From positions 1-64,000 of the IMG/VR virus record IMGVR_UViG_3300009151_000044: a stretch of DNA of 64,000 bases; one strand, written 5' to 3'. Made by a program: the position numbers and the translations under genes. Below the pieces are notes generated by a model, which saw nothing but the letters and a program-made list of their open reading frames with translations, had not been told where the DNA came from and did not search any database. Shown one piece after another: positions 5,571 to 30,422 of the stretch (the stretch's first letter is position 1; every line of letters starts with the position of its first letter). The DNA is from a virus.

Positions 5571-5873
5571 ATGTCAGCAGTATACACAAACTTTAGCCCG
5601 TGGGCCACTACGGAAATAAAAGAAAATTATCTTGGGGTTCTATCAATTAGAGCAGTCAGCGCCGAGCCCGATGATTTTTTATATACAATAGAATCACAGT
5701 ATACACACCGTCCAGATCTACTGGCATATGACTTGTACGGTGAAGCTTCACTATGGTGGGTTTTCATCCAGCGCAATCTTAATGTGCTCCAAGATCCGAT
5801 ATTTGATTTTGTATCGGGCACAAAAATCTATATTCCAAAGTCTAGCAGTTTAAAAATAGTGTTAGGTCTGTAA
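5571..5873 (+). CDS. 53: gp53-like baseplate wedge protein (LysM-like)
   Basis: 100 residues. The segment YTIESQYTHRPDLLAYDLYG...LWWVFIQRN...LQDP...VSGTKIYIP is the compact LysM-like fold seen in phage wedge protein 53, here near the minimal domain size (T4 gp53 is 196). It would help join wedges around the hub. Start ATG follows the preceding stop by one base (TAATATG), with AGTAGGAT inside the upstream gene as ribosome site. Confidence 0.88.
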   Translation: MSAVYTNFSPWATTEIKENYLGVLSIRAVSAEPDDFLYTIESQYTHRPDLLAYDLYGEASLWWVFIQRNLNVLQDPIFDFVSGTKIYIPKSSSLKIVLGL

Positions 5874-9550: not shown

Positions 9551-9993
9551 TGAGTTCAAACGGAAATTTATACACTAAAATAGCATTGCCAGCTGCCAAT
9601 CGTGCCGAAGATATTCATCCTAAGATGTACAAGGGATTTAGTACGCTAAGTGCTGATACAGAAAATTATAGTTTATACGACTTATCTTTGATACAGCAAG
9701 ATTTGTTAAATCATTTTAATGTTCGTCAAGGCGAGCGATTAATGAATCCTGCGTTTGGCACAATTATCTGGGACTTATTATTTGAACCACTAACTGAAGA
9801 CCTCAAAGGATTAATTTTAGAAAACGTAAATCAGATTATCAATTATGATCCTCGAGTTAAAGCTGACAACGTTATTGTTACATCCTATGAAAGCGGAATA
9901 CAAATTGAATGCTTTTTAACTTACCTGCCGTATAACATCAGCCAGAGTCTACAACTACGTTTTGACCAGGCAAACGGCCTGTTGGCAGCATAA
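9550..9993 (+). CDS. 25: gp25-like baseplate wedge protein
   Basis: 147 residues (T4 gp25 is 132). The segment LSLIQQDLLNHFNVRQGERLMNP, FGTIIWDLLFEP and the following helix are the conserved GPW/gp25 core, the sheath-polymerising platform of the wedge in all contractile systems. Start ATG overlaps the spike stop by one base (TAATG). It should form the wedge core with gp6 and gp53. Confidence 0.95.
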   Translation: MSSNGNLYTKIALPAANRAEDIHPKMYKGFSTLSADTENYSLYDLSLIQQDLLNHFNVRQGERLMNPAFGTIIWDLLFEPLTEDLKGLILENVNQIINYDPRVKADNVIVTSYESGIQIECFLTYLPYNISQSLQLRFDQANGLLAA

Positions 9994-10040: not shown

Positions 10041-13000
10041 ATGAGTTCAACCGATAGACAAAATAGGTTATTAGTAGCTGAGGACTGGAAAAAAGTCTAT
10101 CAGAGTTTCAGAAACGCAGACTTTCAGAGTTACGATTTTGAAAATCTTCGCAGGACCATGATCGATTATATCCGTCAAAATTATCCTGAAGATTACAACG
10201 ACTACATTGAATCTAGCGAATACCTTGCCCTCATTGATCTTATCGCATTTATGGGGCAAAGTATTGCTTTCCGTGTTGACTTAAATGCTCGCGAAAATTT
10301 CTTAGAATTAGCAGAGCGTCGAGAATCAGTATTAAGATTAGCACGTATGTTGAGTTATAATGCTAAACGCAACGTGGCAGCTTCTGGTGTTTTAAAATTC
10401 TCATCAGTTCAAACTACTCAAAATGTCATTGACAGTAACGGTCGAAACTTATCAGGCCAAGTAATTGCGTGGAACGATGCGTCAAACGATAACTGGTACG
10501 ATCAGTTTATTAAGATTATGAACGCGGCTATGGCGCCCACTCAACAATTTGGAAGCCCGTCTGACAAAGCAGATGTTTACGGAATTCCAACAGAGCAATA
10601 TAGATTTAATGCGGCCAATAATGATGTGCCGGTATACGCATTTACTAAATCTGTTGGCGGTCGCAACATGAATTTTGAAATAACTAGCACTACATTTACC
10701 GGACAAAATTATATCTATGAGGAGCCGCCATCGGTTGGTAATAAGATGGCGTGTATATATCGTGATGACGGGCGCGGCCCGAGCAGTAGAGGATCGGGTT
10801 TCTTTTTAAATTTTACACAAGGTACTTTGAATCAAGGATCATTTACTATTACTCAACCAAGCTCAACAGAATCAGTTGACATTGATTCTACTAACATTAA
10901 TAATAACGATGTATGGTTATATAAATTAAATCAAGCAGGAATTGAAACTGAAAAATGGTCAAAAGTTTCTAGTTTTGAAGGCAACAACATTATTTACAAT
11001 AGCCTTAATAAAAAGATTAGAAATATTTATGGAGTAGTAACTAGAGCAGGAGATGCTATTAGTCTAACATTTAGCGATGGCATATTTGGAAATTTACCAT
11101 TAGGTATATTTAGAGTATACTATCGAATCAGTAACGGGCTTGCGTACACTATCAATACTCAAGATATCCGTAGTGTAACAATTAATATTCCTTATTATTC
11201 TAGCTCTAATCAACAAGAAACATTGACCATTTCTTTAAGTCTAGCTACCTCTGTATCTAATGCGGATGTTTCAGAAACTAGCGACAGCATTAAAGCCAAT
11301 GCTCCGCAAACATACTATACACAAAATAGAATGATTACAGGCGAGGACTATAATATTAGTCCGCTATCAGCAAGTACTCAAGTAGCAAAAGTAAAAGCAG
11401 TTAACCGAACAAGTAGCGGCATTAGTCGATATTTTGATCTAGTAGATCCAACAGGAAAATATAGTTCTACAAATCTATTTGCCACAGATGGTATCATTTA
11501 TAATGAAAAATACAAATCGCAAACACGATTTAGTTATGCTAATAAAACAGATATTGAAGGCGTAATTTATAATAATGTTTTTGATATATTAACTAGAAAA
11601 AATTTACGTAATTTTTATTATTCAAACTTTAATAATTTTATCACATCCAGTCTTAATATTTCTTGGTTTAATCGTACAACCGATACTGGAATGTCATCTG
11701 GGTACATTGGCGCAACTGACGGCACTCCGTATAAAGTGGGTTCATACACTAGTACTGATTTAAAATATTTTACTTCTGGATCTTTAATTAAATTTATTCC
11801 ACCGGCCGGCTATTATTTTAATACTAATAATAATAACTCATTGGTACTACAAACCGTGCCTGCTAGTCCCGGAACGAGCGCATACTTATGGGCAGAAGTT
11901 ATATCGGTCGTAGACGACGGTACTGCGGTTGGTACTGGAACATTATCTACAGGGTTCGGCCCATTGATGTTGAATAGAGTAGTTCCTACAGATGCTACAA
12001 TAACACAAATTCTGCCAAAGTGGAGAACAGTGATTGATAGTACAGTTATCACTACTATGATAGAATTAATCTTTGCTAACAAACCGTTCGGCCTAAGATA
12101 TAGTAGTGTTACTCAAACATGGCAAATTGTATTCGAGTCAAATCTTGATATAGTATCTCAATTCAGTCTTGGTAAACAAGGTGACGTTTCTAATAAGCAA
12201 CAAGACGCTAGTTGGTTATTGTTGTTTACTACTGATAACGAATATTATACTATTACTAGCCGTGAAGAACAATACATTTTTGAAAGTAACCAACAAATTA
12301 GATTTTACTTTGATAGTAGCAATAAAATTTATGATAGTCGTTCTAATTCAGTAGTTAAGGACAATATTAATATTCTGAGTGTTAATACACAACCGGGTGT
12401 TACTAGTCCGTTCACTCGTGATCAAGTATGGGATGTTGTTTCTGAGTTTATTGGTCTTGATGGATATATTGATACTAAAAAATTGATAGTATCATTTGCT
12501 GATTCTGACGATAACAATGTTGTCGATGACCCTGAATTGTTTATGAATATAGTTGATCCACTAACAAACCCAACGACAAAATATATCCTACAAGAAAAAT
12601 ATTTAATTAGTCAAGGCCAAGAAGATTATAGATATATTACAAATACTGATAATAAAGTGATAGTGTTGCCAACAGATCCTAACGCATATGGTTCTTATGT
12701 TGACGGACAATATTTTTATTTCATTGATACTGATACTGTAAAAAAATTAAATGCGTCTACTGGCAAATTAACTACCAGTTTAGATTATAAAGTTTTTGTT
12801 GGCCGCGATAATCTAAAATTCCAATATACTCATAGTGCCGATTACGAATCAAGAGTTGATCCAGGATCAAGCAACATTATGGATGTATTTGTCCTAACAA
12901 CGGGATATGATACTGCATTTAGGCAATGGTTGAACGGTGCTAATATAACAAAACCGTTAGCACCAAGCTCAGACGAATTATATAATACTGTTGCTCCATC

Positions 13001-13499
13001 GTTAAATTTAATTAAGTCAATTAGTGACGAAATTGTATATCATCCTGTAAGTTATAAAATTTTATTTGGCGCAACGGCTGATGAAGATGTTCAAGCAAGT
13101 TTTAAAATTGTAAAAAATGCTGGGCAAGTACTGACCGACAATGATGTTAAAGCTCGTGTTATCACAGCAATGAATCAATTTTTTGCTTTAGAAAATTGGG
13201 AATTTGGAGACACTTTCTATTTTACTGAGCTAGCAACATATATCGTAAATCAACTTGCCCCGGACATTAGTAATTTTGTCATTGTGCCTAGACAATCTGG
13301 TTTAAACTTTGGCAGCTTATTTGAAATTAAGTCAGCAACTGATCAAATTTTTATTAACGGAGCAACAGTTAACGATATTGAGATTATCTCCGGTATAACA
13401 TCAAGCGCCATTAAATCAATAAGCGGCACAACAGTATCATCGACAGCGACTTCTCAACAAACAATTACAAGTTCAACATACGGATCAACAAATGGCTGA
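10041..13499 (+). CDS. 6: gp6-like baseplate wedge protein (J family)
   Basis: 1152 residues, almost twice T4 gp6 (660). N-terminal block (about 15-130: DFENLRRTMIDYIRQNYPEDYNDY, LIDLIAFMGQSIAFRVDLNARENFL, RRESVLRLARMLSYN) is the defining wedge-dimerisation region; the middle has the J-like TYYTQNRMITGEDYN...VAKVKAVNRTSSG block near 430-460; the extra length lies in the second half, with a terminal arm ELATYIVNQLAPDISNFVIVP typical of gp6. It makes the ring that clamps around the hub and changes shape on contraction. Followed directly by the giant gene, overlapping by 8 bases. Confidence 0.93.
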   Translation: MSSTDRQNRLLVAEDWKKVYQSFRNADFQSYDFENLRRTMIDYIRQNYPEDYNDYIESSEYLALIDLIAFMGQSIAFRVDLNARENFLELAERRESVLRLARMLSYNAKRNVAASGVLKFSSVQTTQNVIDSNGRNLSGQVIAWNDASNDNWYDQFIKIMNAAMAPTQQFGSPSDKADVYGIPTEQYRFNAANNDVPVYAFTKSVGGRNMNFEITSTTFTGQNYIYEEPPSVGNKMACIYRDDGRGPSSRGSGFFLNFTQGTLNQGSFTITQPSSTESVDIDSTNINNNDVWLYKLNQAGIETEKWSKVSSFEGNNIIYNSLNKKIRNIYGVVTRAGDAISLTFSDGIFGNLPLGIFRVYYRISNGLAYTINTQDIRSVTINIPYYSSSNQQETLTISLSLATSVSNADVSETSDSIKANAPQTYYTQNRMITGEDYNISPLSASTQVAKVKAVNRTSSGISRYFDLVDPTGKYSSTNLFATDGIIYNEKYKSQTRFSYANKTDIEGVIYNNVFDILTRKNLRNFYYSNFNNFITSSLNISWFNRTTDTGMSSGYIGATDGTPYKVGSYTSTDLKYFTSGSLIKFIPPAGYYFNTNNNNSLVLQTVPASPGTSAYLWAEVISVVDDGTAVGTGTLSTGFGPLMLNRVVPTDATITQILPKWRTVIDSTVITTMIELIFANKPFGLRYSSVTQTWQIVFESNLDIVSQFSLGKQGDVSNKQQDASWLLLFTTDNEYYTITSREEQYIFESNQQIRFYFDSSNKIYDSRSNSVVKDNINILSVNTQPGVTSPFTRDQVWDVVSEFIGLDGYIDTKKLIVSFADSDDNNVVDDPELFMNIVDPLTNPTTKYILQEKYLISQGQEDYRYITNTDNKVIVLPTDPNAYGSYVDGQYFYFIDTDTVKKLNASTGKLTTSLDYKVFVGRDNLKFQYTHSADYESRVDPGSSNIMDVFVLTTGYDTAFRQWLNGANITKPLAPSSDELYNTVAPSLNLIKSISDEIVYHPVSYKILFGATADEDVQASFKIVKNAGQVLTDNDVKARVITAMNQFFALENWEFGDTFYFTELATYIVNQLAPDISNFVIVPRQSGLNFGSLFEIKSATDQIFINGATVNDIEIISGITSSAIKSISGTTVSSTATSQQTITSSTYGSTNG

Positions 13500-16400
13500 T
13501 AGCATTAATCCAAATAAAAATAAAGTTTCTAGTTTTCTTCCAAGATTTTATAGATCGGATTCAAATAAGAAATTTACACAGGCTACCCTTGATCAATTAG
13601 TACAGCCCGGGACAGTTGATAAACTTAACGGTTTTGTTGGAAGAAAAAATGCTAAAGCAAGTACCGGTAAAGATATCTTTATTAAAGAGATTAGCGACCA
13701 ACGGCAAAATTATCAATTAGAACCAGGAATGGTTATTAAAGATGCGTTAGATAATGTAACATTTTTTAAAGACTATATTGACTATATTAATCAACTTGAT
13801 GTATTCGGTGGCAATGTTAAGAATCATGCCCGTTTAAATAAGCAAGAATTTTATTCATGGGATCCTCATATTGACTGGGATAAGTTTGTTAACTTTCAAA
13901 ATTATTACTGGTTGCCATACGGCCCCGATGTAATCGCCATAGCCGGCCAGCAACAAAAAATTGAAAGTACATATACTGTTACTGTTGAAACAGAAGGTAA
14001 TAGTTTTGAATATGTGTTTACTCCTAACGGGTTAACTCGAAATCCAACAATTAAATTATATAAAGGGCAAACTTATAAATTTGAAATTAATAGTCCCGGA
14101 AATCCGTTTAGTATTAAAACTGTTAGATCATTAGGCACATTAGACAGATATAAAACATTTGGATTAGATGGTGTTGCGGTTGAAAACGGTACAATTACCT
14201 TTACAGTCCCAACAGATGCCCCGGACGTATTATATTATGTGAGTGAATCAGATATTGATCTCGGCGGAGTATTCCAAATATTTTCAATAAATGAAAATAC
14301 AAAAATTGATGTTGAACAAGAAATCATTGGTAAAAAGAATTACTCCCTAGCTAACGGCACTGCCCTTAGCAACGGAATGAAAGTAAAATTTATCGGCGGC
14401 GTAATGCCTTTATCATACGCTTCTGGTGAATATTATGTCGAAGGCGTAGGTACTGCTATTATTTTAATTAACGCATCAGAGCTGGCACTGATTAGCGCAT
14501 ACACTCAGTCTGAATCAATTTTATTTGATTCGACGCCGTTCGATAATATGCCGTTTAGTGATGCTACAGCATTTGCTGGTACTCCTGATTACATTGCGAT
14601 CAATAGGGCTAGTCTAGATAAGAATCCATGGTCTCGTTATAATAGATGGTTTCATATTGATGTGGTTAATTCAAGTGCTGCATTTAATAATAAAATTCCC
14701 AGTCTTGATCAGAATGCTCGAGCAGTTCGACCAATTATTGAATTTGAACCGGGACTAAAATTATTTAATTTTGGACTTCAGTCGGTTGCTGATATCGATT
14801 TGATCGATACGTATACCACTGATGTATTTTCTACAATTGAAGGGTCGTTAGGGTATAACGTTGACGGAATACCGTTGGTTCAAGGCCAACGAGTATTGTT
14901 TACTGCCGACAGTGATGGGTTTGTAAATAATAAAATTTATAAAGTTGAGTTTATTGATGTATTGCATCTCAATACAGGTAGTCGACAAATACATCTTGTT
15001 TTAGAAACTGAACCAGCGTTACATAATGTTGTATTAGTTAAACAAGGTACATCGAATGTTGGTAAATCATATTGGTTTGACGGAAGTACCTGGATAGCCG
15101 GCCAACAAAAAACTATTTTAAATCAACCACCGTTGTTTGATATTGTTGATGATAACATTGTTAGTTATGGTGATACTAATGCGTACGAAGGTTCTACTTT
15201 TAAAGGAACTAAATTATTTTCATATAAGATTGGCACTGGCGCAGCCGATGGTAAATTAGGATTTCCGTTAACCTATAAGAATATTAGTAACATTGGCGAT
15301 ATTGTTTTTAATTTTAATATTTTAACAGACACATTTAGGTATAAAGATTTAGCGAATGTCATTGATAAAAATATTAACGTGGGATATCTTACCTTAATAT
15401 CGCCTGAAACAAAAGCTATCAAATACGCCAACGGCTGGAAAACTTCCTTAGCAACACATAATCAAGCAGCCATCAGGATTTATAAAAATTCAAATTTAAC
15501 AAACAATTTTGAAATTGATATATTTGATAACAAGGACGATTTAACAGACTTAGTAGTACGTTTATATGTTAACGGTCGCCGCCTTGATAAATCATTATGG
15601 ACGATAGTAACAGGACCAGTTTATAAGAAAATAGTACTAACAACTGACATATCTATAGACGATGTGCTGACTATTAAGACATTTGCTAGACAACCAATCA
15701 ACACTAAGGGTTACTACGAAACCCCGATTAATTTACAAAATAATCCATTAAATAATAATCTTGCTGATTTTACATTGGGCGAAGTTATTGATCATGTAAG
15801 CTCTATAGTTGATAATGTAGAAGCATTTGAAGGAAATTACCCAGGCGCAGGTAACCTTAGAGATTTAGGCGATATTACACCTTACGGCACCAAGTTTGTT
15901 CAACACAGCGGTCCAATGGGACTAGCGTTATATCATATTACTAATCAAGAAAATAATATTATTCGCGCAATCGAAAATGCTAAAAATGATTATAATAAAT
16001 TCAAAAGGAATTTTATATCAATCATTGATTCTTTAGAAGTATATTCTACAGATGTAGTAACACAAGTTAACTTGATTTTACAAGCAATTAATAAAGACAA
16101 GCCTGCTAGTGTGGCATATTATTTTAGTGATATGCTAGGTTACAGTGCTAATCAATACAATGAGTATCCGGTAATTGATTATAGAATACAATCATATCCG
16201 TTAGTATCTACATTCAGCCTAACTAACTTATCAAATCAAGCAGTTTATATATACTTGAACGGAACACAGCTAGTATACAAAAAAGACTATACGTTTGACG
16301 GTCAAGGATTTGTAGTTATTAGTGCTACACTACATAATGACGACACTATTGGTATTTACGAATACGAAAATACTGACGGATGCTTTATTCCACAAACCCC

Positions 16401-19400
16401 TACTAAATTAGGAATCTGGCCAAGGTACGAGCCTAAAATCTATCTTGATACTAGTTTAGTAACACCGCGCACGATGATACAGGGACATGATGGTAGCCAA
16501 GTACTGGCCTATGGTGATTATCGTGACGATTTAATATTAGAATTAGAAAAAAGAATTTTTAATAATGTAAAAGTTGAGTATGACGCTAGCATTTTTGATA
16601 TCAACGATTTTCTACCAAGTTATGTTAGAACCACTGAATATGACCTAACAGAATTTAACGAAGTGTTATCAACCCAATTTTATAAGTGGACTAGATTAAT
16701 TGATAGAGATTTTACCAAACCATTAAGCTACGACAGAGAGAACAGTCTTACTTATAATTACCAAGGGCATACTGCGATTGACGGAAGGTCAGTTCCGGGA
16801 TACTGGAGAGGTATATATCGTTGGATGCTAGACACTGACCGCCCTAATCTATGCCCCTGGGAAAGTTTAGGATTTACGATCCAGCCAGCATGGTGGGAGA
16901 CCGTATACGGCCCGGCCCCTTACACCCGAGATAATTTAGTACTTTGGCAAGATTTAAGTCAAGGACTAGTAAAAGAACCAGGTAAGCCAGTAGTAATCTT
17001 AGAAAAATATGTTAGACCTTTCTTGGCTAATAGTATTCCTGTAGACGAAAACGGTAACATCTTAGGACCAATACTGTCAAATCTAGTTAACGGTCCGAAT
17101 ACTGTATCAATTAGTAATGATTTTGTTTTTGGAGATGTTAGTCCGATAGAAGCGGCATGGCGTAGAGGTAGCTACTATCCGTTTAGCTTTTTAATAACTG
17201 CCATGTTAACTGCTCCGGCAAAAACTTTTGGTTTACTATTGGATCGTTCAAGAGTTATTAGAAATTTAACCGGACAGCTAGTGTATAAAGATACTGGACT
17301 ACGTATTCGACCAACCGACGTGGTACTGCCTAGTATATATTCTAGTACAACTAGAGTACAGACCGCAGGTGTAATCAACTATATTATTGATTATGTCCTT
17401 AGCGATAATTTAAGATCTTACACCGACTACTCGTATAATTTAAAGCATCTTAATATGCAGCTAAGTTATCGATTGGGTGCGTTTACTAGTAAAGAAAAAT
17501 TTAACTTGCTGTTAGACAGTAAAACCCCTTCAAGCTCGGGTAGTGTTTTTGTCCCGCAAGAAGACTATAATATTATTTTAAATGTTAGTAGTCCTGTTAA
17601 AAAAATTACGTACAGCGGCGTCATTGTTACTAAATTACCAGACGGCTTTGAGGTCAAAGGCTACAGTCAAATACAACCATATTTTAAATATTTTCCATAT
17701 ATAAAAAATGGACCAACAATTAATATTGGAGGTATCTCAGAAAGTTTTTCAACGTGGACTGCTGGGGAACAATATGCTGTTGGCAAGGTTGTAAAATATA
17801 ATAATCGTTACTACAGAGTAAAGGTTTTTCATGTATCGAGCAGTGTTTTTAATGAAGCATACGTTCAACCATTAGGCAGCTTACCAATTATTGGCGGTCA
17901 GGAGGCTGTGTTTAGAACAGAATGGGATATCTCTGTAGAAATTACAGTACCATACGGCACAAAATTTAGAACTATTCAAGAAACTGTTGATTTTATTATT
18001 GGATACGGCGAATGGTTAAAATCCCAAGGATTTATATTTGATGATTTTAATAATAACATTGCATTAATTACCAACTGGGAAACCAGTGCCAAAGAATTTT
18101 TATTCTGGACAACACAAAATTGGTCTTCAGGACAAGAAAAATGGGCTGAATGGACACCATTTACTACGACTGAATATCAAGAAATTATTCGTTATAATGG
18201 GGACTATTATCAAGCTATTCGCAAATCCGTATCAGAAAATTTATTCATAGAAGATGACTATGTAAAGCTAGACGGGTTAAGTACGGTTGGCAGCTCAGTA
18301 ATATCATTAAGTCCGTCTGCTAGTAAAGTAACTTTTAGTATACCGTACTCAGTAGTAGACGATATTAAAAATCCGTTCCACGAATATGAAATTTTTAAAG
18401 TTGACGGATCGCCAATGCCGCCTCGACTAATTAATTCTTATAGAGAAGATAATGCTGTAAGTTATGCTTCTGTTACAACTGATGGTATTTTTGGCGCAAC
18501 GTTTTTCTTAGTACAAAAAGAACAAGTGGTATTAATAAACAATTCTACAATGTTTAATGACACAATCTATAATCCAGAAAGTGGTTATAGACAGGAGCGT
18601 ATTAAAGTAGCCGGATATGTAAGTACAAACTGGTTTGGAGGATTTGATGTTCCTGGCTTTATCTTCGACCAAGCAAATATTCAAGTATGGTCCTCATGGA
18701 CAGATTATGCGCTAGGCGACATCATTAAGTATAAAGAATTTTATTATAGCGCCAATCAATTTACACCGGGTACAGAAACCTTTATACCGAGTAACTGGAT
18801 CAAATTAGATACCAAGCCGACTCCTCGATTAATACCTAACTGGACATATAAGGCTTCACAATTTGAAGACTTCTATAGCCTAGACAGCGACAATTTTGAC
18901 ATCGGCCAACAACGGGCTGCACAGCATTTAATTGGGTACCAAAAGCGCCAATATCTTGAAAACATTATTAAAGATGATGTTAGTGAATACAAATTTTATC
19001 AAGGTATGATTATTGAAAAAGGTACACAAAACGTTCTTAACAAATTGTTTGACGTATTAAGTGCCGAAGGGCAAGAAAGTATAGTATTTGACGAAGAATG
19101 GGCAGTGCGTGTTGGACAATACGGTGCCAGTGCTGCCTTTGAAAACATTGAATTTATATTACCGGAGAGCTTGTTTAAAAACAATCCTCAAGGTTTTGAA
19201 CTGGCAAACAGTACTGATACTGTATCGCAGGACTTTATTATTCGCCAAACACCAAATGATGTTTATTTAAAACCATTAGGTTATAATAATAATCCATGGC
19301 CTGTTGTTAAAAACTACACTCCGTATTTAAGGACCCCTGGGTATGTTCGTCAACATGAAGTTACTGAGGTACTAATAACTCTTGACGATATTGTTAACAG

Positions 19401-22400
19401 TGACATTGATAAGATTAATAACGGTGACTACATTTGGTGCGGGTTTGAAGGCCGTGAATGGAATGTATACAAGTATGTACCTTCTAATTTCACAGTATTA
19501 AATGTAACATATGATCCCGGTAGCAGTGAATTATTTTTAGAAACTGACGCCCTTGTAAAATTACGACCTGGGGAATATATTGGTATTGAAGGCGACAAAA
19601 ATCTCCGGGGCATCGAACAAATCACATTTAAAGGATTTTATAAAGTTATTCGTTTAGAATTAAATGTAGTAGTACTGTCAGCATCTCTTAAGTCAGCTCC
19701 AAATTTTGCTCCTAATTTAATTATACCAGTATTTGTACTACAATCTCAACGGGTATCGAGTATTGACACGGCTGATTCTATAATTACATCTCAACCAACC
19801 AATGGCGACTTGTTATGGACTGACAATTCCGGTGACGGAAAATGGGCTACTTGGAAATTTAATAATGTATACAAATCTACACAGATTGCCGGTTACCTAC
19901 CAACTAAGGGATTAGAATTTGGTCGAACTATTGCGGTAAACAAAGGCGGTAATTTATCAGCAATATCTTCAGGTAACGGCGATGTTTTAATTTATAGTAA
20001 ATCGGTACCCGGCGTGCCTTGGTCTACAACTCAAAGAATTAGCAAACCGTTCACATCGTTAGGATTAGATATTTGGTCGTCTGAAGTATCCTATGCACAA
20101 GGTACTATTGTATTTTATGTTAATGGATGGTATCAAGCTAATGACATTGTTCCAGCAAGGGTTACCCCACCGAGTAGCGTTGCCCATTGGACTAAAATTT
20201 ACTTTTCAGATGTTGTAGCATTATCTCCAGACGGTACATGGCTTGCCGTTGGAAGTCCGTCGGCTAGTAATGTGTCAGTGTCAACCACAATATCTGAACT
20301 TATTACAGTTAACAGATCCGGGACACCATCTGAATTGACCAATCAAGGGGTTGTATCTTTATACAAAAAAAATAATGCTGACTTATTTTCTTTGGTCGAT
20401 ACATTCACTAGTCCATCTTCAGTTGATAATGAAAAATTTGGATCAAATCTAGTTTTTGGTGATAATGTATTATTTGTTGGAGCGATTGGTCGAAATAACA
20501 ATGCTGGTCGAGTTTATCAGTTAAACTACACAGCCGTACCCTATGCTACTGTTTTGTATAACCCAATCGGTAGTATTGATGCTACGATTAAAACAACAAT
20601 ACCTGTTGGTACCGTAGAAGTAGGCATGACAATTGTTGGCACTGGATTTACTAGCGGACAAAAAGTTAAACAAATTTTAAGTCCAACATTATATGTACTA
20701 ACAGCACCCCCTGACACGACCCCGTCGGGCCGCCTAAGTTTTGTAGTTACTCAATGGGTATATGATAACAACACTGGGATAGGCACTGGGGCGGCGCCCA
20801 ATGATCAATTTGGTTATGCTATTAATGTTAGTGGAGATTCGTCTACCCTGGCAATCTCAGCGCCCGATGCGGAGTCGGTTCATGTCTATAAGAAAGTATC
20901 CGGAGTATATACATTAGTTCAAACAGTAACCGGAACTGATTCACGATTTGGAGAAAGTATTTCTTTATCGGACACTGCCGAATATCTTGCGGTTTCGTCA
21001 ATACTAGTCGATGATAAAGAAATCGACCAAGGCGCAGTATTTGTTTATAAAAATATAAATGGATCTTTCATCACATATCAAAACCTTACTAATGTGATGC
21101 CAGAAGCCGCAGAACATTTCGGAAGTAAAATATCATTCATGAATGACTATGGTAGTATTGTAGTGTATAGTACTGCTGCCGATACTTTTGTTCCGACTAC
21201 TTTTGATACTGGCACAACTACTTTTGATGATAAATTAACAAAAATTATAACTCGTCAGCTCAATAGCGGGCGTGTTGACATATACGATCGATACGCTACT
21301 AAATGGGTATTCAGTGAAAGTTTGCCAACAATTAATTCTGAGTATGATTTATACGGTGCCAGTGTAGTAGTTGGCGCTAACCATGTATTTGTTGGGGCTC
21401 CAAACGCGGTTGATCGTACACTCCGTGCTGGTATTGTCTACGAATACAGCAAGCTAGCCAACACTTACAGTTGGTCAATCTTACATAAAGAAATTAATAA
21501 ATTAGATTTAACAAAAATTAAATCTGCGTTTTTATACAATAAGAAAACAAACAAACTGCTTACATACTTAGATGTAATTGATCCAGTACAAGGAAAAATT
21601 CCAGGCGTTGCTGAACAGGAAATTAAATTTAAAACATTTTATGATCCGGCAGTTTATTGCTCGCCAATAGGAACTGCGATAGCTGATAAATCAGTTAACA
21701 TTGACGACGGCATGGCCTGGACCAAAGATCAAGTCGGCATGTTATGGTGGGATTTAAGATCAGCTAAATTTTTAGATAGTCATGATAACGATCCTGTTTA
21801 CAGAAATAGTACATGGAGTACTTTATTTCCCGGAGCATCAATTGATATATATGAATGGGTCGAGTCGACATTATTACCAGCCGCATGGAACGAACAAGCT
21901 GATACTGATGCTGGTATCACATTAGGAATCAGCGGCACCACACTATATGGTAATAATGTATATAGTTACGAAAAACGGTATGATAATGTAGGTAAAGTTA
22001 CAAAATACAAATATTATTATTGGGTAAAGAATAAAAAAACTATCCCAAACATTATCAATCGTAATATGTCTGCCCAAGACGTATCTAATTTAATATCTAA
22101 TCCAAGAGGCGAGGGATATAAGTTTGTAGCATTGACCGGAACTAACTCTTTTAGTTTATTCAACATATCAAATTTATTAAAAGATACTGATGTTGTATTA
22201 TCTGTACAATATTGGATCGCCGACCATATCGATCAAAACATACATAGTCAGTGGAAAATAATTAGTAGGAATAAAAATACTGTATTGCCAACAGCTATTG
22301 AAACAAAATGGTTTGACAGTTTATGTGGCAAAGATCAGCAGGGACGATTAGTTCCTGACAATAGCTTGCCTCCTAAATTACAATATGGTATTGAAAATAG

Positions 22401-25400
22401 ACCTCGCCAAGGCATGTTTGTAAACAGATTTGAAGCATTAAAACAATTCTTTGAAAAGACAAATTTAATTCTATCAAGTACACAAGTTGTAGGTAACGCT
22501 GATTTATCTTTATTAGATTCTTATGATCCTGAACCTAACATTAATTTAGGGTTATATGATACTGTATTTGATACTGATGCTGAATTAAGATTTGCCAACG
22601 TTGGCGCATTTAAACAAGCAGTCTTAAAACCAGTCATAGTAAACGGTTCAATTGTTTCAATCACAATCATTACTAAAGGTAACGGCTATGTTAATGCCCC
22701 GTATCTTGATATCTCAGGCACAGGAGTTGACGCAAAGATCAAAGCAGTTATAAATGCTAAGGGCCAGGTAGTTAGCGCATCAATTATTTCAGCAGGTAAG
22801 GGATATGATGATAATACAACAGTATCTATTAGAACTTACTCCGCATTAGTACATTCAGATACGCAGGCTTTAAATTCATGGAGCATTTATTCATATGATT
22901 TGTCTACACTGACTTGGTCAAGAGTTCAATCACAAAATTTTGATACTAGAAAATATTGGAAATATATTGATTGGTATGCCACAGGATACGGACAATATTC
23001 GTTGATAGATTTTGCTGTTAACACGTTTGTTGAGTTAACGACCATTGTTACTAATATTGGTCAAATAGTTAAAGTTAGAACAACCGGTGACGGTACTTGG
23101 CTGTTATTAAGAAAGTATGCTAACTCGACAGCAGTTGATTGGACTCAAAGTTATGAAGTGATTGGTATTCAAAATGGAACTATACAATTCTTACCTGAAT
23201 TGTATAGATTTGCTGGAACACCTTACGGCTATGACGGTTCGTTGTATGATGGATCAATATTTGATAATTCTGCCGCTCGGGAATTAAGAAATATTTTAAT
23301 TTGTTTACAAAAAAATATATTAATTGATGAACTAAAACAATACTACTTAGACTTATTCTTTGTATGCGTTCGTTATGCGCATTCTGAACAAAACTATCTT
23401 GATTGGATTTTTAAAACAAGTTTTGTTAAGGCACAACATAATGTCGGCGAATTAATACAAAAGGTCACATACAATAATGATAATTTAGCAGATTTTGAAG
23501 CATATATTACTGAAGTAAAACCTTATAGAACAAAAGTTAGAGAATACATAAGTTCTTATTCTAAAACAGATACCAGCGAGTTATCTCTAACTGATTTTGA
23601 TTTACAGCCAACGTATCGCTCACAGAGTCAATCTACAATTGAAACCAAAGTAATTAACGAAGCGATTGAAGTTGATGATAGTTTAATATCTTCATACCCT
23701 TGGAAACACTGGGCAGATAATGTTGGGTTTAAAGTTACTGAACTTAAGATAGTTGACGGAGGAGCTGGATACCACTTGCCTCCAATAATTAGAATCGCTA
23801 GTAAGTCTGGAACAGGAGCAACTGCCCGAGCATTTATTTCAAACGGTAAAGTTAATAGAATTGTGTTGTTAACGCCCGGTGCTAGTTACTTAAACGCTCC
23901 AACAGTTTTAGTTGAAGGCGGCCTAAATGAAGGCGGCACAGCTGCACAGGTTGTTGCTTATATAGGAAACGGAGTTGTTCGTTCTAGTCTAATTAAAATG
24001 AAATTTGATAGACTCACACAAAATTATTTTATTACAAAATTAGAAGAGTCTGAATCTTTTACCGGAACAGGTAGTCGTTTACAATTTCCATTAAAATGGT
24101 CTCCAGATATTAGAATTGGTAAATCGTCTGTGACAATTAACGGAGTTGATGTGCTACGTGACAATTACAAATTACTGACAGTTAAATCAACAGTACGGGG
24201 TTATACAAGTTATTCTGGATCTATTATTTTTACAAAAGCAATAGCTAAAGATTCTGTAATTTTAGTTTCTTATTTAAAAGATTGGGGATTACTAAATGCA
24301 GCTGACAGGATTCAGTATTACTATAATCCACAAACTGGTGATTTAGGTAAAGATTTGTCACAATTAATGACCGGAGTTGATTACGGTGGCGTTATAATGA
24401 ACGGTCTTGGCCTAAATGTTAGCCAAGGGTGGGATAGCACACCTTACTATACTGACAGATGGGATAGTGTTGATACTACTTTTGACGATTATATTGTGTC
24501 GGTAGCGGCCAATACTCACGTGTTTACCTTGCCGTATGTCCCTGAATCGGGGGTTGAAATCAATACGTATCATATTAAATTGTATCAACAATCATATGCT
24601 GCCAATGGTTTGGATTATCAGTATGACGTGGCTGCTGGGTCATTAAAGGTAGTGATATCTAAAACTGTTACTACTACTGTACAGAATATTGCAGGCGGAT
24701 ATGTTTTATCAGTGCCAAGCACAACCGGTATCAACATAAATGATATTATTACAACCAGCACCAATAATACCTTTGGTTATAACACAAAAGTCACTGAAAT
24801 AATTAATTCGACAGCAGTACGACTGGATCAAATTATATTTGGAACTATTGGAATCGGCAGTGCCATAGTTATTACCCGCACATTAGTAAAAAATATTGAC
24901 TATGTAGTTAGTATAATTGGGCTTGTATCATTAACACAATCGGCACCCGTAGGCAGTACAATAACAATTAGCTCGCCATTAGCTCCTGTTAGATTAGATC
25001 CAACAGTTGTTCCGACTTTTATTGGCGACAATGACGCGGATGTTATTACAATTCCTAGCGGATATACTGTAAATGCTGGCGATGAATTTATTTTCCGTAA
25101 GAGTACTAGTGATGGATCAATTAAACCTCAAGAAGCGGATTACGATACTGCCCTTACCGGCGGCAATTTAGCATATAGTTCTGCTACTGGATTGAACGCA
25201 GAAGATATTATTGTTGACGGTGACGGATTTGTTACGCCTACAACTAGCCCTGCCACAGAAGAAGTCGTTCCGGGTCAAATTTTTGATACAGTTGCTATTA
25301 AAGTATACGAAAAACCCGGCGCAGGTTCTGCCAATATTAAAGTAGATAATTATGTTGGAAATAACAGTCAAGTTGAATATGCGATTACTCAGCAAATCAA

Positions 25401-27615
25401 TAGTCCGCAGGCTGTAATTGTAAAAATAACTGACGGAACATCTACGTCAGTTATCAAGACTATGGACGATGATTATATTGTTAATTTTAATACTCGCACT
25501 ATTAAATTTAATACAGCGCCTACCGCAACACAAATTATTTCGATATTCAGCTTTGGATTTAGTGGATCAAATATTTTAGATCTTGATTATTTTGTTGGTA
25601 ATAATATAACTACAGAATTTATTACTAAAGCACCATGGCTATCAGATATTACTGCGTTGGTATATCTTGACGGTATGCCTGAAGAAGTTGAATTATTTGA
25701 AACAGATGCCACATACGAAAGTAATAAAAGAGTTGGAATACGATTCAACGCTGCCCCGACTGCTGGAACTATTATAAATTTTGTAGTCGTTAGTGGTAAT
25801 GAACAAACGTTTGCTATAACCAAGACTGAAAAGATTGCCACTGACGGACGAGAAAATAGAGATATAGCTACTGGTTTATTAAATGGGACATCAACGTACG
25901 ATTTACAAAATAAAATTGGAAATAGTCTTCCTGCCGAAACCAGCATGATTGTAAGAGTTGACCAAACAATTTTACCAGCAGCCAACAACATTTACTATAA
26001 AATTAAATCAAATAAGTTAACATATACTATTGATAAAAACAAATACGCACAGTATGGTTTAGACGTTGCTGACATTTCAGTATACGTTGGCAATATTATG
26101 CTTGTGTTAGGAACAGACTATGTGGTAGATCTTAGCGGAATCAGTATTAAAATCACAGCTCATATTCGTAGTTTGTATATTAACCAGCAATTGGTTATCA
26201 GTGTAATAAAAAACACGTTAGTAGAAGGTGGTTTCTATAGGTACCTGCCGGGTATTAATAATACTCAACCACAAATTATGTTTAATCAAGTCTATGATTC
26301 ATCACACGTTGTTGAAGTTATAAGTTCTTATAAACATGACATATTAGATATCCAACGAACTTCAGTTACAGTTTCGTCTAATATTAGTTTTACTCCTGAT
26401 ACAATTGAATATTTTAATTACACAGGAGTATCTGGAGGAGTCATTAATCTTGATAGACCTGTAATTAACGATAATTATGTTTGGGTGATTAGTAACGGCG
26501 CATTGTTAGTACCGGGAATTGATTTTAAATTAAATTCAGACAAACAAAGTATTACCTTATCAGCATACCCGGCTGCTGACGATGAATTTACATTAATGAC
26601 TTACGGTAGTAATGTATTAAAATCTGGAATTTCATACATGCAGTTTAAAGATATGTTAAACCGAGTTCATTACAAACGACTAAGTTTAAATAAACAAACA
26701 TCATTAGTAACAAATCTATCATGGAACGATACTATTATTACTGTAGTCGATGCTAGCAAATTTGACGAACCGAATCCTGCTGTAAATAAACCTGGGGTAA
26801 TTGAAATACGTGGAGAGCGTATTGAATACTTTACTAAAATTGGTAATGTTCTAAGTCAATTACGACGAGGAACATTGGGCACTGGAACGCCAACTGTTCA
26901 CCGTGCTGGATCGTTTGTCCAAGACATTGGCCCAAGTGAAACTATTCCGTATGCTGAAAATACAGTTATTGAACAAGTTATAGCAGACGGAACTGACAGG
27001 GTTAATTTAATTAAAATTACTCCGGGATTATACACTTTTACTAACCCCAATACTAAAATTACTAAGACACTACCACACGATATTGAGGTATTTGTTGGCG
27101 GATATAATATTGGAGCTGAGTGGGCGGCTAATGTACCATACTCTGTTGGTATGTTTGTAACCCTAGGAAGTTACACATATAAGTGCACGATTGAACATAC
27201 TAGTGCTAGTACATTCCATGCTGATATTTTAAATTGGACATTCTTTATTGGAAACATTCGTTTAAAGAAAGACTTGTATGCTGTTTATAATGTAAACAAT
27301 CACCCAGACAGTACAGAAGGTGATGTTTCTTTTGACGCAGAATTTACAGTAGATGGGACATCAAAACAATTAATGTTAGCAACTCCGTTAACATTTGGCA
27401 CACAGGTTACAGTTGTTAAACGTACATTAACTTATTGGGATAGTACAACTAATATATTAAACGATAATAATAAAATATCAGGCTTCTTAAAAGCAGAGCC
27501 CGGTGTGTGGTATACAAATATCGGTAAATACGGCAATACTAACAATGTAGGAGCATCGTTTGACAACAATAATGCTACATTTGATGATATAACTACAACA
27601 TTTGATAGAGGATAA
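13492..27615 (+). CDS. Giant baseplate/fibre protein, 4707 residues (gp7 position)
   Basis: One uninterrupted frame of 14.1 kb. N-terminus (NKVSSFLPRFYRSD...KKFTQATLDQL, WDPHIDWDKFVNFQNYYWLPYG) is a type I associate with marine T4-like baseplate proteins. Visible further on: modules W-x(5)-Y-x-x-G-x-x-V-x-Y near residues 1421, 1733, 2193 and 4542, like small carbohydrate-binding modules; about seven FG-GAP-like blades at 2140-2660 (FGRTIAV, FGSNLVF, FGYAINV, FGESISL, FGSKISF, YGASVVV); paired G-x-GY strands near 3048/3085 and 3413/3446; and a short C-terminal TTFDD motif. It follows gp6 where T4 has gp7 (1032 residues). I infer a wedge component carrying extended receptor or glycan-binding arms. 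Function of most of its length is unknown. Confidence 0.75.
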   Translation: MADSINPNKNKVSSFLPRFYRSDSNKKFTQATLDQLVQPGTVDKLNGFVGRKNAKASTGKDIFIKEISDQRQNYQLEPGMVIKDALDNVTFFKDYIDYINQLDVFGGNVKNHARLNKQEFYSWDPHIDWDKFVNFQNYYWLPYGPDVIAIAGQQQKIESTYTVTVETEGNSFEYVFTPNGLTRNPTIKLYKGQTYKFEINSPGNPFSIKTVRSLGTLDRYKTFGLDGVAVENGTITFTVPTDAPDVLYYVSESDIDLGGVFQIFSINENTKIDVEQEIIGKKNYSLANGTALSNGMKVKFIGGVMPLSYASGEYYVEGVGTAIILINASELALISAYTQSESILFDSTPFDNMPFSDATAFAGTPDYIAINRASLDKNPWSRYNRWFHIDVVNSSAAFNNKIPSLDQNARAVRPIIEFEPGLKLFNFGLQSVADIDLIDTYTTDVFSTIEGSLGYNVDGIPLVQGQRVLFTADSDGFVNNKIYKVEFIDVLHLNTGSRQIHLVLETEPALHNVVLVKQGTSNVGKSYWFDGSTWIAGQQKTILNQPPLFDIVDDNIVSYGDTNAYEGSTFKGTKLFSYKIGTGAADGKLGFPLTYKNISNIGDIVFNFNILTDTFRYKDLANVIDKNINVGYLTLISPETKAIKYANGWKTSLATHNQAAIRIYKNSNLTNNFEIDIFDNKDDLTDLVVRLYVNGRRLDKSLWTIVTGPVYKKIVLTTDISIDDVLTIKTFARQPINTKGYYETPINLQNNPLNNNLADFTLGEVIDHVSSIVDNVEAFEGNYPGAGNLRDLGDITPYGTKFVQHSGPMGLALYHITNQENNIIRAIENAKNDYNKFKRNFISIIDSLEVYSTDVVTQVNLILQAINKDKPASVAYYFSDMLGYSANQYNEYPVIDYRIQSYPLVSTFSLTNLSNQAVYIYLNGTQLVYKKDYTFDGQGFVVISATLHNDDTIGIYEYENTDGCFIPQTPTKLGIWPRYEPKIYLDTSLVTPRTMIQGHDGSQVLAYGDYRDDLILELEKRIFNNVKVEYDASIFDINDFLPSYVRTTEYDLTEFNEVLSTQFYKWTRLIDRDFTKPLSYDRENSLTYNYQGHTAIDGRSVPGYWRGIYRWMLDTDRPNLCPWESLGFTIQPAWWETVYGPAPYTRDNLVLWQDLSQGLVKEPGKPVVILEKYVRPFLANSIPVDENGNILGPILSNLVNGPNTVSISNDFVFGDVSPIEAAWRRGSYYPFSFLITAMLTAPAKTFGLLLDRSRVIRNLTGQLVYKDTGLRIRPTDVVLPSIYSSTTRVQTAGVINYIIDYVLSDNLRSYTDYSYNLKHLNMQLSYRLGAFTSKEKFNLLLDSKTPSSSGSVFVPQEDYNIILNVSSPVKKITYSGVIVTKLPDGFEVKGYSQIQPYFKYFPYIKNGPTINIGGISESFSTWTAGEQYAVGKVVKYNNRYYRVKVFHVSSSVFNEAYVQPLGSLPIIGGQEAVFRTEWDISVEITVPYGTKFRTIQETVDFIIGYGEWLKSQGFIFDDFNNNIALITNWETSAKEFLFWTTQNWSSGQEKWAEWTPFTTTEYQEIIRYNGDYYQAIRKSVSENLFIEDDYVKLDGLSTVGSSVISLSPSASKVTFSIPYSVVDDIKNPFHEYEIFKVDGSPMPPRLINSYREDNAVSYASVTTDGIFGATFFLVQKEQVVLINNSTMFNDTIYNPESGYRQERIKVAGYVSTNWFGGFDVPGFIFDQANIQVWSSWTDYALGDIIKYKEFYYSANQFTPGTETFIPSNWIKLDTKPTPRLIPNWTYKASQFEDFYSLDSDNFDIGQQRAAQHLIGYQKRQYLENIIKDDVSEYKFYQGMIIEKGTQNVLNKLFDVLSAEGQESIVFDEEWAVRVGQYGASAAFENIEFILPESLFKNNPQGFELANSTDTVSQDFIIRQTPNDVYLKPLGYNNNPWPVVKNYTPYLRTPGYVRQHEVTEVLITLDDIVNSDIDKINNGDYIWCGFEGREWNVYKYVPSNFTVLNVTYDPGSSELFLETDALVKLRPGEYIGIEGDKNLRGIEQITFKGFYKVIRLELNVVVLSASLKSAPNFAPNLIIPVFVLQSQRVSSIDTADSIITSQPTNGDLLWTDNSGDGKWATWKFNNVYKSTQIAGYLPTKGLEFGRTIAVNKGGNLSAISSGNGDVLIYSKSVPGVPWSTTQRISKPFTSLGLDIWSSEVSYAQGTIVFYVNGWYQANDIVPARVTPPSSVAHWTKIYFSDVVALSPDGTWLAVGSPSASNVSVSTTISELITVNRSGTPSELTNQGVVSLYKKNNADLFSLVDTFTSPSSVDNEKFGSNLVFGDNVLFVGAIGRNNNAGRVYQLNYTAVPYATVLYNPIGSIDATIKTTIPVGTVEVGMTIVGTGFTSGQKVKQILSPTLYVLTAPPDTTPSGRLSFVVTQWVYDNNTGIGTGAAPNDQFGYAINVSGDSSTLAISAPDAESVHVYKKVSGVYTLVQTVTGTDSRFGESISLSDTAEYLAVSSILVDDKEIDQGAVFVYKNINGSFITYQNLTNVMPEAAEHFGSKISFMNDYGSIVVYSTAADTFVPTTFDTGTTTFDDKLTKIITRQLNSGRVDIYDRYATKWVFSESLPTINSEYDLYGASVVVGANHVFVGAPNAVDRTLRAGIVYEYSKLANTYSWSILHKEINKLDLTKIKSAFLYNKKTNKLLTYLDVIDPVQGKIPGVAEQEIKFKTFYDPAVYCSPIGTAIADKSVNIDDGMAWTKDQVGMLWWDLRSAKFLDSHDNDPVYRNSTWSTLFPGASIDIYEWVESTLLPAAWNEQADTDAGITLGISGTTLYGNNVYSYEKRYDNVGKVTKYKYYYWVKNKKTIPNIINRNMSAQDVSNLISNPRGEGYKFVALTGTNSFSLFNISNLLKDTDVVLSVQYWIADHIDQNIHSQWKIISRNKNTVLPTAIETKWFDSLCGKDQQGRLVPDNSLPPKLQYGIENRPRQGMFVNRFEALKQFFEKTNLILSSTQVVGNADLSLLDSYDPEPNINLGLYDTVFDTDAELRFANVGAFKQAVLKPVIVNGSIVSITIITKGNGYVNAPYLDISGTGVDAKIKAVINAKGQVVSASIISAGKGYDDNTTVSIRTYSALVHSDTQALNSWSIYSYDLSTLTWSRVQSQNFDTRKYWKYIDWYATGYGQYSLIDFAVNTFVELTTIVTNIGQIVKVRTTGDGTWLLLRKYANSTAVDWTQSYEVIGIQNGTIQFLPELYRFAGTPYGYDGSLYDGSIFDNSAARELRNILICLQKNILIDELKQYYLDLFFVCVRYAHSEQNYLDWIFKTSFVKAQHNVGELIQKVTYNNDNLADFEAYITEVKPYRTKVREYISSYSKTDTSELSLTDFDLQPTYRSQSQSTIETKVINEAIEVDDSLISSYPWKHWADNVGFKVTELKIVDGGAGYHLPPIIRIASKSGTGATARAFISNGKVNRIVLLTPGASYLNAPTVLVEGGLNEGGTAAQVVAYIGNGVVRSSLIKMKFDRLTQNYFITKLEESESFTGTGSRLQFPLKWSPDIRIGKSSVTINGVDVLRDNYKLLTVKSTVRGYTSYSGSIIFTKAIAKDSVILVSYLKDWGLLNAADRIQYYYNPQTGDLGKDLSQLMTGVDYGGVIMNGLGLNVSQGWDSTPYYTDRWDSVDTTFDDYIVSVAANTHVFTLPYVPESGVEINTYHIKLYQQSYAANGLDYQYDVAAGSLKVVISKTVTTTVQNIAGGYVLSVPSTTGININDIITTSTNNTFGYNTKVTEIINSTAVRLDQIIFGTIGIGSAIVITRTLVKNIDYVVSIIGLVSLTQSAPVGSTITISSPLAPVRLDPTVVPTFIGDNDADVITIPSGYTVNAGDEFIFRKSTSDGSIKPQEADYDTALTGGNLAYSSATGLNAEDIIVDGDGFVTPTTSPATEEVVPGQIFDTVAIKVYEKPGAGSANIKVDNYVGNNSQVEYAITQQINSPQAVIVKITDGTSTSVIKTMDDDYIVNFNTRTIKFNTAPTATQIISIFSFGFSGSNILDLDYFVGNNITTEFITKAPWLSDITALVYLDGMPEEVELFETDATYESNKRVGIRFNAAPTAGTIINFVVVSGNEQTFAITKTEKIATDGRENRDIATGLLNGTSTYDLQNKIGNSLPAETSMIVRVDQTILPAANNIYYKIKSNKLTYTIDKNKYAQYGLDVADISVYVGNIMLVLGTDYVVDLSGISIKITAHIRSLYINQQLVISVIKNTLVEGGFYRYLPGINNTQPQIMFNQVYDSSHVVEVISSYKHDILDIQRTSVTVSSNISFTPDTIEYFNYTGVSGGVINLDRPVINDNYVWVISNGALLVPGIDFKLNSDKQSITLSAYPAADDEFTLMTYGSNVLKSGISYMQFKDMLNRVHYKRLSLNKQTSLVTNLSWNDTIITVVDASKFDEPNPAVNKPGVIEIRGERIEYFTKIGNVLSQLRRGTLGTGTPTVHRAGSFVQDIGPSETIPYAENTVIEQVIADGTDRVNLIKITPGLYTFTNPNTKITKTLPHDIEVFVGGYNIGAEWAANVPYSVGMFVTLGSYTYKCTIEHTSASTFHADILNWTFFIGNIRLKKDLYAVYNVNNHPDSTEGDVSFDAEFTVDGTSKQLMLATPLTFGTQVTVVKRTLTYWDSTTNILNDNNKISGFLKAEPGVWYTNIGKYGNTNNVGASFDNNNATFDDITTTFDRG
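19915..21480 (+). repeat. FG-GAP/integrin-like beta-propeller segment inside the giant gene
   Basis: About seven repeats of the form F-G-x-x-(I/L)-x-(V/L)-x-x-x-(G/D), each followed by a strand ending V(F/S)VGA or LA(V/I)S and a (V/I)x(V/I)Y(K/E) strand, cover residues about 2140-2660. Spacing is irregular because of insertions. FG-GAP propellers usually bind protein or sugar ligands. Repeat family assigned by eye. Confidence 0.6.
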
Positions 27616-27619: not shown

Positions 27620-28735
27620 ATGGCAAAGCAAGTAATAGAGATAGGGTCGCGAGCAAATGACGGCACTGGCGATTCGATCCGCATCGGCGCACAGAAAATT
27701 AATGATAATTTTACTGAGCTATATTCAAACGCAGTGCCGTCTCCTGCTGGTCAAAGCGGAAAGTATTTAACTACTGACGGGACTGCCGTTACATGGGGAA
27801 CGGCAACAGTTTCTAACATAACAGGAAATGCTGCAACCGTTACAAATGGAGTTTATATTAACGGCAGTTATTCAAATCCGTCGTGGATTACTAATTTAGA
27901 TCCTAGTAAAGTGTTACCAACTCAGTCTAGTCATATTGGGCAATTCTTAACAACTGACGGTAGTACTATTAGTTGGGGGCCAGTGATACAACCAGAGCAA
28001 CTTCAAAGCGATTGGGCTCAAAGTAATACTGCTTCCTTAGATTTTATTAAAAATAAACCAACAATCCCTACAAACACTAACCAACTTGCTAACGGTGCTG
28101 GGTTTCTTACATCAAATGGTATACCTAATCAAACTGGAAATACTGGAAAATATTTAAGCACAAATGGATCAGTGTTGTCTTGGAATACAGTAAACGCACA
28201 ACTACAAAGCGATTGGACTCAAAGTAATACTGCTTCCTTAGATTTTATTAAAAACAAACCAACAATTAACACGCTTGTACCTAGTCAAACCGGTAATAGT
28301 GGAAAATATTTAAGCACTGATGGATCAACAGTATCATGGGCATCAAGTTCCGGACTAGGTGCTCGACTAATAGTATCGGCAACAACCGCTTCTCTTTCTA
28401 GTGGTGTCGCCGGAGTAGTTACTGCTTCAGGATTCAAAGGATATGCGTTATTAAGTATACAAGTTAGTGCCGGCGCATGGGTTACAGTTTATACTAGTTC
28501 TGCTGCACAATCAGCAGACAGTGGTAGAGCTATATCTACTGATCCTACACCTGGTAGTGGAGTTGTTGCTGAGTCGGTTACTACTACTGCTACTACAACA
28601 TATTTTTCTCCAGCTATAATTGGTTATAGTAGTGAAGCAGTACCGAATACGAACATTCCGTTGAAAGTTTATAATAATAGTGGGTCAACCGCAACAATCA
28701 CGGTTACACTAACTCTATTAAAATTGGAAGTATAA
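27620..28735 (+). CDS. Fibre-like structural protein with internal repeats
   Basis: 371 residues from ATG 27620, preceded by GAGGATAAAAAT; a frame extends 18 bases further upstream into the giant gene, but without a ribosome site. N-terminus IGSRANDGTGDSIRIGAQKINDNF is a common marine phage fibre attachment motif. The middle holds four G-KYL(T/S)T(D/N)G-x-x-(V/I)-x-W units and two nearly identical blocks with SDW(A/T)QSNTASLDFIKNKPT; the C-terminal 130 residues form a Ser/Thr-rich beta domain. Probably a small tail fibre or tip attached to the baseplate. The receptor is unknown. Confidence 0.75.
   Translation: MAKQVIEIGSRANDGTGDSIRIGAQKINDNFTELYSNAVPSPAGQSGKYLTTDGTAVTWGTATVSNITGNAATVTNGVYINGSYSNPSWITNLDPSKVLPTQSSHIGQFLTTDGSTISWGPVIQPEQLQSDWAQSNTASLDFIKNKPTIPTNTNQLANGAGFLTSNGIPNQTGNTGKYLSTNGSVLSWNTVNAQLQSDWTQSNTASLDFIKNKPTINTLVPSQTGNSGKYLSTDGSTVSWASSSGLGARLIVSATTASLSSGVAGVVTASGFKGYALLSIQVSAGAWVTVYTSSAAQSADSGRAISTDPTPGSGVVAESVTTTATTTYFSPAIIGYSSEAVPNTNIPLKVYNNSGSTATITVTLTLLKLEV
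28004..28266 (+). repeat. 62-bp direct repeat, two copies 201 bp apart
   Basis: Bases 28004-28065 and 28205-28266 agree at 60 of 62 positions. They encode the duplicated QSDWxQSNTASLDFIKNKPTI blocks of the fibre-like protein. Nucleotide-level identity suggests a recent duplication or gene conversion. Confidence 0.9.
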
Positions 28736-28736
28736 T

Positions 28737-30362: not shown

Positions 30363-30394
30363 GCAATCGATTAAACTACCACATTATATACATT

Positions 30395-30403: not shown

Positions 30404-30422
30404 AAGATAAAGAGAGAGTATT

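Follow-up and report, generated by a model that had tools for sequence, protein, structure and literature searches.

What kind of protein is encoded by a gene of 4707 codons that directly follows gp6, at the place where phage T4 carries the gene of the baseplate wedge protein gp7? This question is raised by a virus record from IMG/VR (IMGVR_UViG_3300009151_000044), a 94-kb linear contig representing a fragment of a genome, of which the first 64,000 nucleotides (the window) were analysed here. A first-pass annotation, made from the letters alone, had proposed a wedge part that combines a baseplate-type N-terminus with a beta-propeller and sugar-binding-like modules, and had suggested that it carries long host-sensing arms. 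As outlined below, the reading that we prefer, with a probability of roughly 65%, is that the giant protein is a wedge protein of the gp7 type from a jumbo-like myovirus related to T4, which was enlarged by many inserted and appended beta-rich modules.

A Single Frame of 4707 Codons

The giant gene is one open frame on the plus strand (13492-27615), running from ATG to TAA with zero internal stops, so that the extent first annotated is exact, and each of the other five frames across it contains between 4 and 87 stops in every block of up to 1.5 kb. It accounts for 22% of the window, in keeping with the original estimate of over a fifth, and its product has a predicted mass of 525 kDa and a pI of 5.0. 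Contiguous homologous ORFs are present on dozens of independent contigs in IMG/VR, where a scan with residues 1-1600 returned 326 relatives (the best 80 of 326 were used), and the distant relatives were reached by two further scans beyond this one. One record (IMGVR_UViG_3300028392_000236) carries a frame of identical length, 4707 aa, with 100% identity over the residues 1-1600 searched, and a contig from a different metagenome is also 100% identical at residues 1-1600 and stays open up to the contig end. Complete ORFs were found in 112 of the 231 loci examined (median 4570 aa, mostly 4.2-5.5 kaa), and the frame measures 3336-5523 aa in 25 longer records, with no stop within the matched part. 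Since an identical copy and more than 200 relatives on other contigs have the same kind of frame, the giant frame is not an assembly join, the concern that had accompanied the annotation. In one close relative (L019:9992-18082, 64%), a stop ends the frame after just 2694 aa, representing a split gene, a frameshift or a truncated form.

When the giant gene was compared with four relatives, every 500-codon block had a dN of 0.04-0.48 and a dS of about 0.8-3; as dS is near saturation, dN/dS is to be read as a sign of constraint and not as a precise ratio. The gene is under strong purifying selection throughout, with a peak of dN in the block of residues 2001-2500 in all four relatives.

Genomic Context

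The genes around the giant gene that bear on its role are the following:

5571..5873 (+), gp53-like wedge protein (PF11246 at 5673-5819, E 1.2e-6)
8099..9550 (+), gp5-like hub / tail lysozyme protein (phrog_13211, E 1e-42)
9550..9993 (+), gp25-like wedge protein / sheath initiator (phrog_261 and phrog_43)
10041..13499 (+), gp6-like baseplate wedge protein, 1152 aa (phrog_10646, E 8e-297)
13492..27615 (+), giant virion structural protein, 4707 aa (phrog_10938 family)
27620..28735 (+), next gene, ATG at 27620, gp9/gp10-like N-terminus (phrog_677, phrog_958; T4 gp10, 40% over 78 aa)

The gp6-like and giant genes overlap by 8 bases (ATGGCTGA), and the genes for SbcC, SbcD and a late sigma factor lie on the minus strand, upstream of the gp53-, gp5-, gp25- and gp6-like genes. 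Among relatives, gp6 is directly upstream of the giant gene in 210 of 211 loci, and in 134 of 135 in the distant set, while gp25 was found in 196 of 196 loci, which substantiates the placement at the gp7 position of the baseplate. The gene on the 3' side is not conserved among the relatives (3 of 71). Little above shuffles was returned by a promoter and terminator scan.

Further observations were made in the remainder of the window. The N-termini encoded by the genes at 31035, 33143 and 35039 (within 27620-36574) all match phrog_14394 and phrog_15511, and these genes look like paralogous tail proteins, and the gene at 27620 has, close to its start, GTGDSIRIGAQKINDNFTELY, which we take to be a motif of cyanophage tail proteins. 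A QueE-like radical SAM protein is encoded at 51108-51962 (-), which may point to 7-deazaguanine chemistry, and 62231-63016 matches a phage family annotated as UDP-glucose dehydrogenase.

A Known Family of Jumbo-Phage Virion Proteins

In a PHROG profile search, the giant protein matched phrog_10938, a jumbo-phage virion structural protein family, over five stretches (1070 bits, E 0). Relatives in isolated phages were found by tblastn in PA5oct, MIJ3, Atu_ph07, SCTP-2 and the RaK2/121Q/CBB group (identity 25-31%), and the annotated records of PA5oct, 121Q, Atu_ph07, RaK2 and CBB place the gene directly 3' of gp6. These counterparts, namely PA5oct gp355, 121Q gp582, RaK2 ORF070w, CBB_236, phAPEC6 gp245, Atu_ph07 gp180 and SCTP-2 gp140, share with the giant the position after gp6 (in SCTP-2, after an unnamed large gene) and, in residues 1-2000 and 2650-3400, are collinear with it and 25-33% identical, but they are shorter (3323-4449 aa versus 4707 aa) and their C-terminal part diverges. 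Several of them have been observed by mass spectrometry: PA5oct gp355 is marked ESI-MS/MS in its record, phAPEC6 gp245 (381.88 kDa), which adjoins the baseplate wedge protein gp244, was detected with 17 unique peptides (PMC7247149), and CBB_236, which adjoins the baseplate wedge protein CBB_237, with 21 peptides (PMC5259590). On the strength of these relatives' virions the phrog_10938 family is virion-structural, and the giant is a baseplate/tail structural protein of this known family, with virion presence shown for its relatives; the structural, baseplate-type role first ascribed to it is thereby borne out.

Proteins of the phrog_10938 type, with 3.3-5.5 kaa, adjoin gp6 in hundreds of jumbo-like phages. 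The family is already in PHROGs, yet it is hardly studied and is annotated just as "virion structural protein" or "hypothetical"; less known are its family-wide CBM5/12 content and its optional integrin-like propeller, which are described below. A UniProt entry from an uncultured Caudovirales phage (A0A6J5L0K2, "YHYH domain-containing protein") is 67% identical to the giant in the 561 residues searched; it is uncharacterised, and BFVD models segments of it only. XacN1 ORF325 (3313 aa), whose gene follows a baseplate wedge gene, was not counted as a relative, its core match having an E-value of just 2.

A Conserved Scaffold with Variable Modules

Among relatives, conservation is concentrated in residues 1-2000 and 2650-3700, which constitute a shared scaffold, whereas residues 2000-2650 and 3700-3900 are variable with large insertions. 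The following modules and blocks were located in the protein:

13972..14280 (+), beta domain, residues about 161-263, optional in the family (hhalign 98.6% to the S-RIM2 gp9 C-terminus)
17755..17895 (+), CBM5/12-like module 1, residues 1422-1468
18151..18276 (+), CBM5/12-like module 2, residues about 1554-1595
18688..18825 (+), CBM5/12-like module 3, residues 1733-1778
19849..21426 (+), seven-bladed integrin-alpha/FG-GAP type beta-propeller, residues about 2120-2645 (profile and fold match)
20074..20220 (+), CBM5/12-like module 4, residues 2195-2243, inside the propeller region
22639..22836 (+), GxGY repeat domain 1, residues about 3050-3115, common to cyanophage baseplate proteins
23179..23601 (+), conserved block, residues 3230-3370, with DWIFKTSFV and EVKPYRTKIREY-type motifs (family conservation)
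23731..23976 (+), GxGY repeat domain 2, residues about 3414-3495 (phrog_460 match)
27121..27264 (+), CBM5/12-like module 5, residues 4544-4591, aligned to the chitinase A1 domain

Thus, the modules of the layout first proposed are present, with the propeller and most of the sugar-binding-like modules situated mid-protein and C-terminally, but a baseplate domain was not recognised at the very N-terminus, which matches its own family only, plus the domain at residues 161-263. This domain is common to the C-terminus of many cyanophage gp9-type tail proteins, has low coverage in the jumbo isolates, and was the only match of residues 1-300 in comparisons with T4 gp5 to gp12, gp53 and cyanophage proteins. 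The cyanophage gp9-type end domains are presumably cupredoxin-like with Cys/His/Met ligands, and such ligands are not evident in residues 161-263. An early cyanophage lead, the "wedge initiator" of Bellamy, was abandoned, as its match is limited to the same domain. Sequence searches against the PDB gave no match for residues 1-1150 and nothing useful for residues 2640-3720. Both GxGY repeats are common to the cyanophage giants and gp8, and the conserved block at residues 3230-3370 has no known relatives outside the family.

The beta-propeller is seven-bladed and of the integrin-alpha type, which confirms and specifies the earlier assignment: the profile search against the PDB matched integrin alpha-4 with an E-value of 1.7e-12, the AlphaFold2 model of residues 1560-2660 (mean pLDDT 83) contains a beta-propeller, and Foldseek on the propeller model listed an integrin first (E 8e-11), followed by seven-bladed propellers. 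Pfam FG-GAP_2 is just under its cut-off at this place (21.4 vs 23 bits), and the integrin-type DxDxDG calcium motif is absent from residues 2151-2660. The propeller is the fastest-evolving part of the protein, with low conservation and raised dN in the 2001-2500 block. A propeller HMM built from close relatives matches 109 of the 151 long family members, and in PA5oct, 121Q, Atu_ph07, SCTP-2 and RaK2 it gave no match, where a very diverged propeller could be missed. An optional propeller fits an exchangeable recognition module, without amounting to proof of one, and the long host-sensing arms first suggested stay hypothetical. No paper on gp7 with a propeller turned up among the papers searched.

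The sugar-binding-like modules were likewise recovered, five in the giant and one to six in each of the 151 long members. For the whole giant protein, Pfam CBM_5_12 scored 40.1 bits (cut-off 26.2), and the profile is above cut-off in nine of ten family members tested. The modules match chitin deacetylases and chitinases in the profile search against the PDB. The chitin site of chitinase A1 contains an exposed tryptophan. In module 5, Phe is aligned with the Trp that closes the matched part of chitinase A1, which makes it uncertain whether chitin is bound. The model of residues 1440-2000 gave CBM-type Foldseek matches, with weak E-values, to proteins of two Agrobacterium phages, the Milano tail spike and the 7-7-1 fibres, indicating that such modules also occur in the receptor-binding parts of other phages.

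Searching for a gp7 Core

The gp7 identity was addressed by several direct comparisons. The giant has no match to phrog_964 (gp7) in the PHROG search, PF21427 (Gp7 domain V) is absent from it, and PF23786 and PF09684 gave no matches in its own genome. Nothing significant was found in the giant by hmmsearch with a T4/cyanophage core HMM, nor by hmmsearch or hhalign with T4 gp7 itself. The N-terminal LPRFYR motif aligns with the LPxFVR starts of gp7 proteins, with a score that is not significant (rank 7 in the gp7 N-terminal profile scan). The top places of the profile scans were two internal candidates:

17974..18114 (+), candidate gp7-type helix-turn-helix, residues 1495-1541 (top of the gp7 N-terminal profile scan; pLDDT about 90)
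18841..19059 (+), candidate gp7-type KGT helical core, residues 1784-1856, with K1843-G1844-T1845 (top of the gp7-core profile scan)

The wider gp7 core comprised Menlow (283 aa), YC (236), ACP17 (482), Melnitz (896), T4-like and cyanophage proteins. When the whole giant was scanned for the gp7 core, the three best windows were in register at K1843-G1844-T1845 (score 21.0, next place 15.4); the KGT profile has its best place at 1839-1860, and the helix-turn-helix profile at 1499-1525 (score 22.1, next place 16.6). Shuffling of the columns gave 19 control proteins with top scores of no more than 20.6 and 20.5, below those of the giant in 19 of 19 for each motif, and each motif score is thus near p 0.05. 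The profiles agree in order and in place (1495-1860, a 370-residue stretch), the signal spanning about 20-30 residues per motif with an HH probability below 35%. AlphaFold predicts two confident helices at 1495-1512 and 1529-1541 (model m9f285ed62dfb) and moderately confident ones at 1784-1856 (pLDDT 60-75), and conservation within the family is among the highest in the latter residues. Foldseek with the model of the core region returned mainly CBM-type structures, with no gp7 chain among the 50 matches listed.

The claim of a gp7-like wedge part is favoured by the position after gp6 but not proven by the direct sequence comparisons: the sole gp7-like signal is internal (about 1495-1541 and 1784-1856) and weak, with no gp7 fold among the matches listed; on balance, gp7 identity is probable. 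In 12 of 12 jumbo-type records, gp8 and gp7 domain V were undetected, and gp53 was matched in all 12, above the curated cut-off in some and below it in others. This combination fits a replacement and may also reflect divergence.

A Model for the Giant Protein and Competing Explanations

In a gp7-type arrangement, one copy of the giant would be present per wedge, and hence six per virion, and would join two gp6 copies via the helical core at residues about 1495-1541 and 1784-1856. About 1490 residues precede this candidate core, compared with about 640 in T4, and about 2850 follow it; residues 1-1490 and 1900-4707 would build the outer wedge, for which T4 uses gp7, gp8 and neighbouring proteins. 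This scaffold would carry the CBM5/12-like modules as well as the optional propeller, with these parts probably touching the cell surface or holding fibres, and a binding signal may pass from them to gp6, gp25 and the sheath. More tentatively, it can be speculated that this is an all-in-one wedge, in which gp7 expanded to scaffold, fibre docking and host recognition, with the propeller as an exchangeable cassette just after the gp6-binding core, and that the jumbo-phage and cyanophage lineages each enlarged gp7 in this manner.

The strongest competitor of the gp7-type reading, although we consider it unlikely, is a baseplate-peripheral protein of a fibre network or outer wedge shell that occupies the gp7 slot, the real (gp6)2-gp7 partner being another, undetected protein. 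Such a protein would account for the weak direct gp7 homology and for the beta-rich, adhesion-type character of nearly all recognisable modules, and further wedge genes could be located outside the 94-kb fragment that the record represents, which also counts against gp7. However, a peripheral role is difficult to reconcile with the nearly invariant place after gp6, with the scaffold-like conservation of residues 1-2000 and 2650-3700, and with the peaks of both gp7 motifs within the same 370-residue stretch. Ranked below this is a fusion of several wedge proteins (gp7, gp8 and gp9/gp10-type parts), itself a special case of the gp7-type reading, which would explain why gp8 and gp7 domain V are undetectable elsewhere in complete jumbo relatives. 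Such a fusion would also account for two similarities to cyanophage proteins, that of residues 161-263 to the C-terminus of gp9-type proteins and that of the GxGY repeats to gp8. The shared pieces are, however, mobile repeat or beta modules rather than defining gp8 or gp9 domains, and hhalign against T4 gp8, gp9 and gp10 was not significant. Only the unusual length speaks for an assembly join or for read-through of a pseudogene, and this explanation was rejected as extremely improbable, because the same frame recurs on many independent contigs and in isolates, with dN far below dS along the whole gene.

Comparison with gp7 of T4, Cyanophages and XM1

If the giant is gp7, gp7-type proteins range from about 240 to 7300 residues, the wedge would be, besides the tail fibres, a store of recognition modules, and the composition of the bulky outer baseplates of jumbo phages is predicted. 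T4 gp7 (1032 aa) is 4.6 times shorter than the giant, in agreement with the "more than four times" of the first-pass annotation. Common to both are gp25- and gp6-type genes followed by the gp7 gene, the overlap with gp6 (4 bases between T4 genes 6 and 7, 8 bases here) and possibly the order of helix-turn-helix and KGT motif; they differ in domain V, which was not found in the giant, and in the lack of a significant direct match.

In size, the giant is not exceptional for its position, as the cyanophage genes annotated as gp7 after gp6 encode 4454 aa in P-HM2 and, larger than the giant, 7312 aa in P-SSM4 (L355:18138-40076); S-RIM2 has an unnamed protein of 6378 aa at the same place. These cyanophage giants resemble ours in the location directly after gp6, the GxGY repeat modules and the KGT helical motif, but share no collinear sequence homology with it beyond the repeat modules. 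Their KGT region matches T4 gp7 in hhalign (E 2e-6) and has weak tblastn matches to T4-like gp7 at the same motif. At the other extreme stands phage XM1, in which, as in T4, the core of the wedge consists of a (gp6)2-gp7 unit, and whose gp7 counterpart bears spikes, the receptor-binding parts, at two sites, a loop and the C-terminus (PMC10457771). This counterpart, XM1 gp17, has 242 aa and is about 20 times shorter than the giant, to which it is likened by its place in the (gp6)2-gp7 scheme.
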